Translations under genes and position numbers: made by a program | From: a virus | IMG/VR virus record: IMGVR_UViG_3300030388_001615 | Span: 1 to 21,356 of that record | Strand: one strand, 5' to 3' | DNA: 21,356 nt | Shown: positions 9,719 through 20,907 of the stretch, piece by piece | How positions within the stretch are numbered: the stretch's first letter is position 1 | Layout of the letters: each line of letters opens with the position of its first letter | The notes under the pieces: generated by a model | What the model saw: only the letters and a program-made list of their open reading frames with translations | The model's database searches: none | What the model was told of the DNA's origin: nothing

Positions 9719-10187
9719 AATCTGAAACTTTATAAAACATCACAAAAACTTTTCTACCTTCCTCCCAAGATACATTAGGATATTTGCTATGAAAATAACT
9801 AGAAGGATATGAGACCAATCTATTTTCTTCATAACCAACAACCGTACTTAATCTCCATCTATCTAAATTATTAGCATCTACTTTTATCATTTTATCATAA
9901 TCACTATCACTAATATCTTTAGGTAACTCCCTACCATAAACATCATGTTCCCATAATGCTGTACCATGCAGATTTTCTTTTTCTCTGGGCGATAAATAAA
10001 GAACTAAAGCTCTATCAGGTTTCTCACCTTTAATATTTAAATCAGAATGAATACGCCAAGAAACGTCTAATTTATCTGTAGCAATTCTAAAAAAACTTAA
10101 AATATTTTTAATTTCCTTACCCTCTAAATGTTTATTAGCTATTTCAAAAAGATTTTTTTGCACAAAATCATCTACAATATATATCAT
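9711..10187 (-). CDS. 2-oxoglutarate/Fe(II)-dependent oxygenase (prolyl-hydroxylase-like)
   Basis: A 158-residue protein matching the double-stranded beta-helix oxygenase pattern. His47 and Asp49 (WRIHSDLNI, an HxD motif) and His133 (SYPSSYFHSKYP) would bind iron. Arg145 in GRKVFVMFYK fits the 2-oxoglutarate-binding Arg that follows the distal His by about 10-12 residues. ALVLYLSP and VVGYEENRLVSYP supply the typical strands. Enzymes of this class hydroxylate protein side chains, nucleic acid bases or small molecules using O2 and 2-oxoglutarate. Here the gene overlaps the GroES-like gene by 4 bases (ATGA type) inside the head operon, so a virion or scaffold protein is a possible substrate (inference). 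It closely resembles the compact phage versions rather than AlkB. Confidence 0.8.
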   Translation of the reverse strand: MIYIVDDFVQKNLFEIANKHLEGKEIKNILSFFRIATDKLDVSWRIHSDLNIKGEKPDRALVLYLSPREKENLHGTALWEHDVYGRELPKDISDSDYDKMIKVDANNLDRWRLSTVVGYEENRLVSYPSSYFHSKYPNVSWEEGRKVFVMFYKVSDYE

Positions 10188-10747
10188 AAAGAAAAAGTTA
10201 TATTGTTGGTAAACATCCTATAAAGTCTTTCTCCATCAACATTAAATTCATATTCACTTTCTGGTTGATAAGAAATCTCATCACCAACTTTTAAACCCAT
10301 ACTTAAAAGCTGATCGTTAATGTATTTAATAGTTCCGAACAAAGGTTCTTCTGTAATAGATTTTTTAATAAAAGAATCTTTTGAAGCAGATGGTTTTATA
10401 AAACAATATTTATTATAACCTTTCCATTCTTTATTTTGTTTGTATAAAAAGAATTGATCAGGATCAACAAAAAACAAGTCATCTTTAAAATAACTTTTAC
10501 CGCTTTTTCTTCGGCCCTGCATATCGTTATAAAACTTAAATACATTATGATGAACTAAAAGGGTATCTCCTTCTTTTACAGGCCCTGAGTAATCTATAGG
10601 TGTTGATACTACAACAGCATAACGATTAGACGCGCTATGGTCTTCTTCTGAAGTACTTATGATAAAATCAGTTTCACCATATTTTTTTGTATTATCGTAT
10701 CTCTTATTATTATAAGGTTTTACAATAAACGAGTAAGGAGATTTCAT
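10184..10747 (-). CDS. GroES-like protein with two chaperonin-10-type halves
   Basis: A 187-residue protein in which two GroES-like beta folds can be read. Half one: SFIVKPYNN (6-14), then TDFIIST and RYAVVVSTP, and VKEGDTLLVHHNVFKFY (57-73), ending DLFFVDPDQFFLYK (90-103). Half two: YCFIKPSAS (114-122), EPLFGTIKYI (134-143), LKVGDEISYQPESEYEFNV (152-170) and LYRMFTNNITF (175-185). The order (start motif xxxVKP, GxV-type strand, vkxGDxV, then a closing xxxLxxxdI strand) is that of GroES. Phage co-chaperonins such as T4 gp31 replace GroES during capsid folding. The gene lies in the head operon, so a capsid folding cofactor is a sensible inference. A typical mobile loop is not obvious: residues 20-35 could serve. 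A structural protein using the same fold is the alternative. Confidence 0.72.
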   Translation of the reverse strand: MKSPYSFIVKPYNNKRYDNTKKYGETDFIISTSEEDHSASNRYAVVVSTPIDYSGPVKEGDTLLVHHNVFKFYNDMQGRRKSGKSYFKDDLFFVDPDQFFLYKQNKEWKGYNKYCFIKPSASKDSFIKKSITEEPLFGTIKYINDQLLSMGLKVGDEISYQPESEYEFNVDGERLYRMFTNNITFSL

Positions 10748-18088: not shown

Positions 18089-18484
18089 TTATTTTTTAGA
18101 AATAGTAATATTTTTAGATATTTTCTCTGCACTTCTCCCAACAACATAACCTCCAATACCTATTTTTAATAACTCCCAAAATTCAATTTCTAATTTAGGG
18201 ATAGTCAAATCAAATACAGGAGCTACAAATTTTACATAAATTATTATAAATCCAAACGACAACATTAATATTGGCCTCCAACTTCTTTGCAGCCAATTAC
18301 CTTTTGCTTCTGCTATAATAATATCAGTTTGCATTTGCTGCAACTCTACTTTTTTTTGTAAAATAATTTCTTTTATTATACTTTCAGCTTTTATTTTTTC
18401 TTCTTTAGAAGTAAATAATTTATCCAGGCCACCTAATAAATCTTTAAGTACGCTACCTCCGAACCAATCAAATATTTTTTTCAT
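18089..18484 (-). CDS. Holin of the gene-transfer-agent 3TM type
   Basis: A 131-residue membrane protein. The N-terminal region is helical and charged (FDWFGGSVLKDLLGGLDKLF, 5-24; a Lys/Glu/Gln-rich helix to about 60). It is followed by GNWLQRSWRPILML (62-75), which leads into a hydrophobic segment of about 72-92, and then FWELLKIGIGGYVVGRSAEK (102-121), a second membrane segment with the GGYVxGRSxEK signature. This matches the layout of the 3TM gene-transfer-release holin family (Pfam PF11351). Holins permeabilise the inner membrane and let the endolysin reach the wall. Here the likely partner is the amidase at 20449-20862, separated by seven small basic genes. It is the last gene before the fibre promoter. 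Confidence 0.88.
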   Translation of the reverse strand: MKKIFDWFGGSVLKDLLGGLDKLFTSKEEKIKAESIIKEIILQKKVELQQMQTDIIIAEAKGNWLQRSWRPILMLSFGFIIIYVKFVAPVFDLTIPKLEIEFWELLKIGIGGYVVGRSAEKISKNITISKK

Positions 18485-18486
18485 AA

Positions 18487-18741
18487 TTATTTCTTAGATT
18501 TTTTACCAGAACATTTCCATCTCTTACGAGATAAATTATTAGGGGTGTTGGGATCGTTTTGTTTTTTCTTAGACAGTCTTCTTTTTATTCCAAAACTTCT
18601 GGCACAATAACTATCCCCTTTGGTAGTCCCAGGTTTTACTCTTGGGCCACCACCAGAAGCCTGACCTGCTTGACCATAACTAACTTTCTTTCCAGAAGAA
18701 GTTACTTTAACTTTTGCTTTTCCAGCTCTTGGTTTTGCCAT
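18487..18741 (-). CDS. Small basic protein with paired cysteines (84 aa)
   Basis: An 84-residue, very Lys/Arg-rich protein. The first 40 residues are Gly/Lys/Ser-rich and probably unstructured (AKPRAGKAKVKVTSSGKKVS). The second half has GDSYCARSFGIKRRLSKKKQ and then NDPNTPNNLSRKRWKCSGKK. The two cysteines, roughly 30 residues apart with the intervening conserved-looking NDPNTPNNLSRKRW, suggest a small folded unit. I have the impression of seeing this pattern in marine phage genomes, without an assigned role. It overlaps the upstream gene by one base (TAATG), so the two are coupled. No membrane segment is present. Nucleic-acid binding is possible from composition alone. Confidence 0.82.
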   Translation of the reverse strand: MAKPRAGKAKVKVTSSGKKVSYGQAGQASGGGPRVKPGTTKGDSYCARSFGIKRRLSKKKQNDPNTPNNLSRKRWKCSGKKSKK

Positions 18742-19076
18742 TATGATTTATAATTTCTTTGAAATTTTTTAATTTCTCTTTTTGATTTTCTATGACCAAA
18801 GGAATTTCTCGTTCCATCTGGTGCTACTACAACTCTTTCACCATTTTTTTTAGTTTCTGTAACTAAAAAATTTGTTTTACCCTTTGGTTTTTTATTAGTC
18901 TTTGTAGAAACTTTTTGAGTTCTTTTACGTGTTACATTATTCAGAACATCAGAATTAGATTTTGTTTTAACCTTTTTATTTTTTGAGGTCTTAAGCGTTT
19001 TTATTTTTACTGTATGAGGTTGTGACTTTGATTTACAATACGCTAATGCTTTTCCTTTTAATCCTTTGCAACTCAT
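18741..19076 (-). CDS. Small basic protein with CKGLKG N-terminus (111 aa)
   Basis: A 111-residue protein that opens MSCKGLKGKALAYCKSKS, almost the same N-terminal motif as the 147-aa protein at 19879-20322 (MSCKGLKGRELRACKIKAG). Pattern: M-S-C-K-G-L-K-G-x(2)-L-x(2)-C-K, two cysteines 11 residues apart. The rest is Lys/Thr/Asn-rich low complexity (IKTLKTSKNKKVKTKSNSD), followed by a more ordered KTNFLVTETKKNGERVVVAP and DGTRNSFGHRKSKREIKKFQ. No enzyme motif or membrane segment is seen. It overlaps the next gene by one base. Function unknown; a cationic nucleic-acid or wall-associated role is only suggested by charge. Confidence 0.82.
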   Translation of the reverse strand: MSCKGLKGKALAYCKSKSQPHTVKIKTLKTSKNKKVKTKSNSDVLNNVTRKRTQKVSTKTNKKPKGKTNFLVTETKKNGERVVVAPDGTRNSFGHRKSKREIKKFQRNYKS

Positions 19077-19091
19077 CTTATTTTTTCTTTA

Positions 19092-19445
19092 TTATTTTTT
19101 CTTATTCATTTTAGCTCTTTTCTTTTTCATTCTATTGAGCATAGATTTACCTCTTATTTTACTTATTTTTCTTGAAGTAAAATCACCTCCCTCTTTACCT
19201 CTTTGAAGAGTGTAAGATCCATCTTTATTTTTTTTAACTTGCTTAAAAGTTTCACGTCCATTACCCCTTTTATTAGTCTTCATTTTTACACGACTAATTT
19301 TAGTATCATCCATGTTTGAAACATAAGATTTGCTTTTAAAAGTTTCAGTATTTTTACCTCCACCTTTACCCTTCATTTTCACCACACTTCTTTTACTTAC
19401 CTTAAAAGGGCCTTTAACTATTTTTTTCTTTTTTGGATCTGGCAT
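19092..19445 (-). CDS. Small very basic protein (117 aa)
   Basis: A 117-residue protein dominated by Lys, Arg, Ser, Thr and Gly. A roughly repeated element is visible: NTETFKSKSY and GRETFKQVKKNKDGSYTLQR, with repeated KISRVKMKTN/KISKIRGKS segments. The spacing suggests a small beta-rich domain in residues 45-95 with disordered basic ends (MNKKK at the C-terminus). There are no cysteines. It lies 2 bases after the 41-aa gene and 15 bases before the 111-aa gene, within the microprotein block of the lysis module. Neither a motif nor a family is recognised. Confidence 0.8.
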   Translation of the reverse strand: MPDPKKKKIVKGPFKVSKRSVVKMKGKGGGKNTETFKSKSYVSNMDDTKISRVKMKTNKRGNGRETFKQVKKNKDGSYTLQRGKEGGDFTSRKISKIRGKSMLNRMKKKRAKMNKKK

Positions 19446-19447
19446 TA

Positions 19448-19573
19448 TTATTTCTTTTTAGGAGTATGACTATATCCTTTTTTCTTTAGTGCTAAATGGT
19501 CTTTCATAGTTTTAGCAACTTTTTTAATTCCAGTTTTGCTATACATATTATGTATCTTAAATGCTTTTGCCAT
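19448..19573 (-). CDS. 41-aa basic microprotein
   Basis: ATG at 19573-19571, in the AATTATGGCA context common to other starts here; stop TAA at 19450-19448. The product begins MAKAFKIHNMYSKTGIKKVA and continues KTMKDHLALKKKGYSH, ending in a lysine tail. It has one amphipathic helix (KKVAKTMKDHLALKKK) and no cysteines. It is fitted between neighbouring genes with 2-base gaps on each side, which is the main support for it being real. Function unknown. Confidence 0.75.
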   Translation of the reverse strand: MAKAFKIHNMYSKTGIKKVAKTMKDHLALKKKGYSHTPKKK

Positions 19574-19575
19574 AA

Positions 19576-19875
19576 TTATTGTTTTCTTATTATTCTTTTC
19601 CTTTTCCTTGTTTCTAATTTGTTTCGGAAATTTGCTTCTTTTCTTTCTACTTTGTCGCTTCTCTTTTGGATTCTTTTAGACCTTTCTAAAAGACGACTTT
19701 CTTTTTTCATCCTTCCTTCATCTAAAGCAATGTTAGCTTTATTCTTAACTTTAGCTACTCTTTCTCTCATTACCACAGACCTTTCTTTCATACCTTCTCC
19801 GATACGTAATTTAGGTAGTTTTTTATCTTTAATTTGAGTTGGCGCCAAAGGCAATGATATTCTTGCGTCTTTCAT
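19576..19875 (-). CDS. Charged coiled-coil small protein (99 aa)
   Basis: A 99-residue protein beginning MKDARISLPLAPTQIKDKK. From about residue 28 to the end it is one long Arg/Lys/Glu helix (MKERSVVMRERVAKVKNKAN, KKESRLLERSKRIQKRSDKV, ERKEANFRNKLETRKRKR) with heptad-like hydrophobic spacing. That could be a coiled coil or a lone charged helix. There are no cysteines and no membrane segment. It lies 2-3 bases from both neighbours in the microprotein block. Basic charge and helicity would suit binding to RNA, DNA or acidic wall polymers, but nothing specific is seen. Confidence 0.8.
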   Translation of the reverse strand: MKDARISLPLAPTQIKDKKLPKLRIGEGMKERSVVMRERVAKVKNKANIALDEGRMKKESRLLERSKRIQKRSDKVERKEANFRNKLETRKRKRIIRKQ

Positions 19876-19878
19876 AAT

Positions 19879-20322
19879 TTATTTTTTATTTTTTTTATTT
19901 TTTTTATTTAAACTCATAAGATACTCTTCTCTTTTATTAAATTGAGTTTTAGCCAAAGGCTTAGAGCTTCTTACTTTATTCTTAGCATTATATATTTTGG
20001 TGTGGTTGTAAAGTTTAGTCAACGCTTTCTTTTGAGATGAAGTTCTTTGAGTTGGTCTACCTGAACTATTTTTTTTATCTTGTTTTTTCTCAAGTTTTTT
20101 CATTCCTTTCCAACCCTCAAAGTTGTTTTCTTTTGCAAACTTTTTACCTCTTGCCTTTCCTTCAGGTGATCTGTCTATATATTTCATCCCTGCTATTGAG
20201 TTCTTCTTTGAAGGTACACTGTTCTTAAAAATTCTATCTGTTTTAAGAGAATCTCTTTTAACTTTTCCAGCTTTTATTTTACAAGCGCGCAACTCTCTGC
20301 CTTTTAATCCTTTACAACTCAT
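19879..20322 (-). CDS. Small basic protein with CKGLKG N-terminus (147 aa)
   Basis: A 147-residue protein opening MSCKGLKGRELRACKIKAG, the same double-cysteine motif that starts the 111-aa protein at 18741-19076. The bodies differ. This one contains GMKYIDRSPEGKARGKKFAK, then ENNFEGWKGMKKLEKKQ, a Ser/Thr-rich linker, and ALTKLYNHTKIYNAKNKVR. It ends in a run of lysine and asparagine. Composition is strongly basic throughout. The gene follows the 39-aa gene by 4 bases. The shared N-terminus on unrelated bodies suggests a reusable module such as a localisation, packaging or metal-binding tag. This is inference, and no known family is recognised. Confidence 0.82.
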   Translation of the reverse strand: MSCKGLKGRELRACKIKAGKVKRDSLKTDRIFKNSVPSKKNSIAGMKYIDRSPEGKARGKKFAKENNFEGWKGMKKLEKKQDKKNSSGRPTQRTSSQKKALTKLYNHTKIYNAKNKVRSSKPLAKTQFNKREEYLMSLNKKNKKNKK

Positions 20323-20326
20323 GTCT

Positions 20327-20446
20327 TTATTTCCTTACACAGTTATTAACTCGTTTAACTTTTCCGCTTTTTGTCATTTTTCCGCTGGGAGATTTTTTAG
20401 TTCCTTTTGCAACATAACCTTTCCAACATTTTTGTTTATAAGCCAT
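20327..20446 (-). CDS. 39-aa basic Cys-containing microprotein
   Basis: ATG at 20446-20444 in an A/T-only leader (ATAATTATGGCT); stop TAA at 20329-20327. The product begins MAYKQKCWKGYVAKGTKKSP and ends with VNNCVRK. Cys7 and Cys36 are in a strongly basic peptide, with CWKG recalling the CKGL motif of its neighbours. The gaps are 2 bases to the amidase stop and 4 bases to the next start. Function unknown; the tight spacing and the Cys pattern make it likely to be a real gene. Confidence 0.75.
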   Translation of the reverse strand: MAYKQKCWKGYVAKGTKKSPSGKMTKSGKVKRVNNCVRK

Positions 20447-20448
20447 AA

Positions 20449-20862
20449 TTATATATTTTTATATTCACTTGTCGCGTCAAAACTTGGACACTCTTTACTT
20501 GAAAAATCCCTATGCCCATGTATAACAGCATTAGGATGAAACTTTTTTAATAATCTAAGAAGCTCCAGTAGTGATGCTATTTGATTAGGTGTCCTGGTGT
20601 CTTCTGCGCACTCCATATCTTTATCCATTCCACCAATGTAACATATACCAATGCTATCTTGATTGTGTCCCTTACAATGCGCCCCAGACACTTCTATAGG
20701 TCTTCCATATTCCATAGCACCATCAAGTCTTACTATGTAATGATATCCAATATCACTCCACTTATTTCCTTTAACGTGCCAGTCCCTTATATCTTCCGCA
20801 CTAAAATCTTTGTGAGGAGGAGTTGCAGAACAATGAATTATTATCTTATCTATATTTCTCAT
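20449..20862 (-). CDS. N-acetylmuramoyl-L-alanine amidase (T7-lysozyme-type endolysin)
   Basis: A 137-residue type-2 amidase that cuts the bond between muramic acid and the peptide stem of peptidoglycan to lyse the host. It aligns by motif with T7 lysozyme. Zinc ligands are His10 (IIIHCSAT), His117 (IHGHRDF) and Cys125 (SSKECPSFD). Catalytic partners are Tyr40 in SDIGYHYIVRLDG and Lys123. There is no signal peptide or wall-binding domain; 137 residues is close to the 151 of T7 lysozyme. It therefore needs a holin, most likely the one at 18089-18484. It starts 14 bases past a strong terminator and no promoter box is visible in between, so how it is transcribed is unclear. The ECPSFDA end is followed by only a few residues, so the domain is minimal but complete. 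Confidence 0.93.
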   Translation of the reverse strand: MRNIDKIIIHCSATPPHKDFSAEDIRDWHVKGNKWSDIGYHYIVRLDGAMEYGRPIEVSGAHCKGHNQDSIGICYIGGMDKDMECAEDTRTPNQIASLLELLRLLKKFHPNAVIHGHRDFSSKECPSFDATSEYKNI

Positions 20863-20875
20863 CTATATTTATTTT

Positions 20876-20907
20876 AAAAAAAAAGACGCAGATGTTCTGC
20901 GTCTTTT
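20876..20907 (-). terminator. Strong bidirectional rho-independent terminator
   Basis: AAAAGACGCAGA (20881-20892) and TCTGCGTCTTTT (20896-20907) form a perfect 12-bp stem with a 3-base loop (TGT). On the minus strand a run of about nine T residues follows (complement of A 20876-20884). On the plus strand TTTTAATTTTT also follows. It separates the 58-aa membrane protein gene from the amidase. Confidence 0.93.

Follow-up and report, generated by a model that had tools for sequence, protein, structure and literature searches.

Seven basic microprotein genes separate an amidase from a holin gene

What is a run of small, lysine-rich proteins doing between the amidase and the holin of a phage, and does it take part in lysis? 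We addressed this question for a 21.4-kb virus record, analyzed at its full length of 21,356 nucleotides and termed the window, whose genes lie on the minus strand in the order amidase, seven microproteins, holin, fibre genes, terminase, portal, scaffold-like protein and capsid. The window terminase shares 70% identity with that of a Manatee Spring phage and 45% with those of the Flavobacterium 'elemo' phages. The N-acetylmuramoyl-L-alanine amidase (endolysin; 20449-20862, minus strand) was identified by Pfam Amidase_2 (6e-15) and the PHROG amidase family (2e-58), and the holin (18089-18484, minus strand), of the GTA_holin_3TM type, by GTA_holin_3TM (3e-9) and the PHROG holin family (6e-29). 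Elsewhere in the window, a 187-aa gene at 10184-10747 carries the PHROGs label co-chaperonin GroES.

All seven open reading frames of 39-147 codons were found tightly packed on the minus strand between the two lysis genes, as described in an initial annotation of this DNA. In transcription order, the run begins with p7 (20446-20327, 39 aa), a basic two-cysteine module of the form CWKGY...NCV, followed by p6 (20322-19879, 147 aa; amino-terminus MSCKGLKG), the basic and exchanged p5 (19875-19576, 99 aa), the conserved basic p4 (19573-19448, 41 aa), which usually lies directly upstream of p1, and the lysine-rich p3 (19445-19092, 117 aa). The exchanged gene p2 (19076-18741, 111 aa; amino-terminus MSCKGLKG...CK) and p1 (18741-18487, 84 aa), a DUF6321-type basic protein with two cysteines and a predicted fold, complete the series. 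The intergenic spacing of -1 to +15 nt makes the seven frames resemble a single transcription unit. Directly upstream of the amidase, a bidirectional terminator-like hairpin (20881-20907, no strand assigned; two such hairpins found versus 1.2 expected in shuffles) may form the boundary of this amidase-microprotein unit. A 65-nt direct repeat with 72% identity spans the starts of p2 and p6 (19027-19091 and 20273-20337), indicating that their amino-termini are paralogous.

The composition of the proteins also agreed with the initial description as strongly basic, devoid of membrane segments and in several cases carrying paired cysteines. Lysine and arginine make up 30-35% of the residues, yielding net charges of +12 to +36, whereas for the other listed window genes the net charge per residue lies between -0.07 and +0.07. 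The best 19-residue hydropathy of any of the seven was at most +0.02, so that p1-p7 have no membrane segment. Two cysteines each are present in p1, p2, p6 and p7, and p5 contains a charged central stretch (ANIALDEGRMKKE). Weak Pfam and NCBIfam matches of p2-p6 were regarded as composition noise.

p1 is a widespread phage protein with a confidently predicted fold

Searches of IMG/VR yielded at least 597 confirmed relatives of p1. Among the cellular genomes of 84,980 species only nine matches were obtained, eight titled as metagenome-assembled genomes and one as a metagenome bin; p1 is thus nearly missing from cellular genomes. When the window was compared with six phages from other lineages, p1 proved 81-89% identical with synonymous sites near or beyond saturation, and within the fetched stretches around p1 these six phages gave no BLAST match to the window portal, terminase or capsid. 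p1 is a very common small protein of marine viral contigs that is conserved where the head genes are not recognizably related. Isolated phages with a related terminase (elemo and Cellulophaga phages) gave no p1 match, indicating that p1 is not universal in the lineage.

In unrelated marine phages, p1 occurs among head genes. For 70 distinct p1 proteins, the nearest large upstream gene matched a portal family in 28 cases, GroEL in five and major head protein families in further cases. Spot checks directly upstream of p1 identified a portal in contig L011 and major head proteins in L024 and L068, and in phage P-SCSP1k a p1 relative lies between the capsid and tail-tube genes. Cultured phages with stand-alone genes of the p1 type include Roseobacter phage CRP-7, Vibrio phage 1.061.O, Pelagibacter phage HTVC100P and cyanophage P-SCSP1u.

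An AlphaFold2 model of p1, built with 77 relatives, reached a pLDDT of 95.4 and a pTM of 0.83. It comprises two short strands, three helices and a short carboxy-terminal strand pair, with C46 located within the first helix and C77 beyond the last one. This confident fold renders a disordered protamine-like peptide unlikely. Neither the p1 sequence by itself nor its profile gave a significant hit in PDB searches, and a fold search with the model returned no PDB match and no recognized DNA-binding fold; the viral models matching the p1 fold include cyanophage DUF6321 proteins.

p1 and p7 correspond to modules of cyanophage virion proteins

The initial annotation had recognized none of the seven proteins, a statement that no longer holds for p1 and p7. 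p1 aligned to DUF6321 (PF19846) over residues 40-75 with 17.1 bits (E 0.0087), below the gathering cut-off of 28.5 bits, while 20 of the 77 aligned relatives matched the family at E ≤0.01 (best 6.8e-22). Together, these values identify p1 as a diverged DUF6321 relative rather than a formal member. Residues C46, R48, W75 and C77, constituting the CAR...W.C core, are invariant in all 77 sequences, including the 20 that match DUF6321. This carboxy-terminal part of p1 (CARS...RKRWKC) is of the DUF6321 type and is found at or near the carboxy-terminus of the cyanophage protein gp114. The ends of p1 and of a DUF5754-like family (Tlr6F) look alike by eye; a profile comparison of p1 with this family was not significant (hhalign probability 0.3-0.4%, E 0.14-0.18). 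Literature searches on DUF6321 retrieved no publication.

A p7 profile matched gp114 of S-RIM8, P-SSM2, RB11-B and S-P4 as well as a 103-aa protein of S-TIM5, with E-values of 1e-10 to 2e-15. Tblastn hits of p7 were weak (E 1-7), with 72 of the 73 matched records stemming from cyanophages. In an ACG-2014d record, a p7-like stretch (92537-92608) adjoins a p1-like one (92618-92866). By sequence, p1 and p7 are therefore stand-alone versions of modules in gp114, whose T4-GC0119 cluster is annotated in S-P4 as a structural protein. A p7-like CWDGYE...PNCVP module also occurs in the carboxy-terminal extensions of two portals from related contigs (L118:675-2786 and L141:398-2329; PHROG portal E 2e-102 and 8e-133, respectively). 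The AlphaFold2 model of p7 is a hairpin of moderate quality (pLDDT 78, pTM 0.36).

Mass spectrometry of purified virions of cyanophage S-CREM2 has detected 52 proteins (PMC10665884). Across the whole S-CREM2 genome, the p1 profile matched a single protein, ORF137 (E 1.8e-13), encoded between terS and terL, and the p7 profile likewise matched only ORF160 (E 1.7e-7). Both are on the virion list, with four and seven unique peptides, respectively (PMC10665884 Table 3). The chance of finding both module proteins among 52 detected of 221 annotated features is about 5%, and the peptide coverage of ORF137 is 4.1%, so the p1 module itself may be unseen in these virions. For S-SM1, Sullivan 2010 detected 41 virion proteins. 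Our literature searches found neither virion proteomics of the window phage or its clade nor anything on this system under lysine-rich phage cargo, and the P-SCSP1u cryo-EM and P-SSP7 papers contained no proteomics of the small p1-like ORF. A small virion protein of P-SS2 that we considered is not basic and lends the reading no support. For p2, p3, p5 and p6 no link to virion proteins emerged, and they are placed in the cassette solely by composition and position.

A constrained core is accompanied by exchanged genes

The expectation that the seven frames are conserved in relatives held for p1, p4 and p7, which are under strong purifying selection (dN/dS of 0.04-0.15, 0.02-0.22 and about 0.02, respectively), and failed for p2, p3, p5 and p6, which are patchy, exchanged genes. 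Values for p3, p5 and p6 were about 0.25-0.5 (p3 about 0.46, p6 about 0.38), and p2 reached 1.43 against the related contig L029, with 21 nonsynonymous and 4 synonymous codon differences. At the DNA level, p2 (window 18741-19076) and its L029 counterpart (L029:4667-5002) are 89% identical in phages that are otherwise far diverged, the neighboring p1 showing a dS of about 1.8 in the same comparison. This indicates a recent horizontal transfer of p2, whose mostly nonsynonymous change perhaps reflects diversifying or relaxed selection. Taken together, the dN/dS pattern and the differing divergence of p2 and p1 delineate a constrained core (p1, p4, p7) and a fast-changing, horizontally moving remainder, with p1 as a core cassette member. 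In other contigs, moreover, strongly basic small ORFs amounted to 41% within two genes of p1 versus 9% further off (P = 3e-15), which along with the low dN/dS of p1, p4 and p7 argues that the block is more than a chance assembly.

The distribution of the individual genes follows the same division. p4 was found at 12 loci, p5 at 9-13, some of them having only the central stretch in common, and p2, a paralogue of the p6 amino-terminus, at six. p3 was present in two related contigs only, with tandem paralogues in L186, and the one close relative of p6 is in L002 (the same contig as L179); judged by eye, p6 resembles an extended version of a 50-aa protein encoded in L192 (L192:4559-4711). The flanks of the window and L002 are 98-99.6% identical, and the cassette breaks at gene boundaries: in the near-identical L002, two different basic genes take the place of p2 and p3.

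The lysis setting is incidental

The position between amidase and holin, by which the initial annotation had placed the block inside the lysis module, holds in a few close relatives only. L186 carries its microprotein set there, as in the window, and L082 shows the order amidase-p7-p4-p1-77aa-holin. The block is not conserved at this site beyond them: in L006 and L029 amidase and holin adjoin with the microproteins upstream, and in L084 a single short lipoprotein-like gene separates the two, the microproteins again being upstream. In L182, L185, L189, L192 and L193, arrays of about 3-10 mostly basic microproteins are located downstream of a GroES-like gene, preceded by GroEL in three of the five. 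The contigs with a GroEL-like gene upstream of the array are L189, L192, L193 and L015, the gene being mostly followed by a GroES-like gene of 85-86 aa. As amidase and holin are adjacent elsewhere and the microproteins otherwise located, we conclude that the lysis setting is incidental. Membership among lysis proteins (spanin, holin or cationic lysis peptide) was rejected in view of the hydropathy of at most 0.02 and the non-conserved placement.

At least 15 recurrent microprotein families could be told apart by eye in the relatives. Microproteins beside p1 or its neighbors match DUF5872 and DUF5754, families of giant viruses, polinton-like viruses and phages; the models of both families gave no match among the window proteins. 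Two proteins, L182:3642-4001 (119 aa) and L193:2565-2903 (112 aa), are fusions of two families that are separate in L189, the former matching DUF5872 at 1.5e-12. A listing for an algal giant virus likewise contains DUF5872 (PMC12085832). A basic 97-aa protein (L185:4962-5255) matches DUF5754/Tlr6F at 1e-4, below the cut-off. The small protein Tlr6F, of unassigned function, has been described as conserved among PLVs, virophages, Megavirales and certain phages (PMC4642659).

Discussion

We favor, with moderate confidence, the interpretation that the block forms a mosaic cassette whose products are packaged head proteins, probably associated with DNA. Since p1 and p7, two of the best-conserved members, are akin to parts of virion proteins of another marine phage, the run is probably quickly swapped head cargo rather than lysis machinery. 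The proposed proteins would be small and basic, probably late-expressed, and either part of the phage head structure or enclosed within it, where a lysine- and arginine-rich surface would contact the packaged DNA. p1, p7 and probably p4 would be standing members and the remainder exchangeable cargo, of which the variable proteins may accompany the DNA out of the capsid and have a role in the host cell, by analogy with T4 internal proteins. We infer that the stand-alone proteins of this phage would be packaged, too, and that they may contact DNA and be ejected. The site between amidase and holin would then be where the clade keeps the cassette in its operon, with no lysis function. Of the three roles suggested by the initial annotation, packaged DNA-condensing proteins are thus favored, given the homologous modules in proteins detected in purified cyanophage virions and the many unrelated phages in which p1 adjoins portal and capsid genes; a link to lysis was not supported.

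The company that the modules keep would also suit accessory factors of head assembly or packaging that act on portal, scaffold, terminase or DNA and are not kept in the mature virion: p1 genes adjoin those for portal, scaffold and capsid, the gp114 gene neighbors the terminase subunit genes and a p7-like module is fused to portal proteins. We consider this unlikely, however, as the module-bearing S-CREM2 proteins stay in purified virions and up to about ten different basic microproteins exceed the expected need. The fast turnover of p2, p3, p5 and p6, which are gained, lost and swapped with breaks at gene boundaries, and the amino-acid change in p2, both reminiscent of an arms-race or accessory locus, and the strongly basic character of the proteins would fit unpackaged host-takeover or anti-defence proteins binding host nucleic acid or ribosomes. 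To this reading, too, we assign a low probability, because the core members p1 and p7 correspond to modules of portal proteins or of proteins detected in virions, unrelated phages show extreme conservation of p1 and the block has structural and lysis genes as neighbors, unlike takeover genes, which as a rule are early.

It is rather improbable that the accessory genes, at least p2, p3 and p6, are weakly constrained and travel with the cassette without a fixed function. Their few homologues and elevated dN/dS point in this direction, yet in those relatives that were found the frames remain uninterrupted and their products basic, the gene boundaries are exact and amino-terminal CKGLKG motifs recur in other phages. 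Cationic peptides that destabilize the wall or outer membrane and so aid lysis would explain highly cationic proteins encoded between amidase and holin. They are very improbable here: the proteins lack a hydrophobic stretch, structure prediction shows p1 as a compact folded domain, L006, L029 and L084 carry the genes away from the amidase-holin pair and many p1 genes are located in head modules.

Broadening the head-cargo interpretation, we tentatively propose, as a possibility of limited likelihood, that unrelated marine phage lineages share a pool of at least 15 small basic modules, some related to DUF5872 and DUF5754 proteins of giant viruses, which are used as swapped cassettes or fused virion proteins, with conserved members holding the set in the head and variable ones being delivered with the DNA against host DNA or defence. 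The link of p1 and p7 to virion proteins provides the DUF6321 family with a function that can be tested. It further suggests that unrelated-looking phages exchange common head-cargo modules, which would account for the blocks of such basic microproteins that many genomes of marine phages contain.

Compared with known systems, the locus resembles an endolysin-holin lysis module in being flanked by amidase and holin, and departs from it by seven genes without a lysis feature at a non-conserved location. A further counterpart is gp114, with which p1 shares the homologous carboxy-terminal CARS...RKRWKC part and which carries the p7-type CW...NCV module together with two more modules, each of them a microprotein of its own in window relatives. 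gp114 is a multi-module protein encoded near the terminase genes, whereas in the window the modules are individual genes of 39 and 84 aa that lie between amidase and holin, and p1 has an additional conserved amino-terminal SYGQAG part. In T4, the internal proteins IPI-IPIII are small, basic and head-located, and are encoded in variable gene sets between conserved flanks; proteins of this type are packaged, undergo cleavage by the prohead protease and are ejected along with the DNA. Our comparison with the T4 locus is one of function and implies analogy rather than relatedness.
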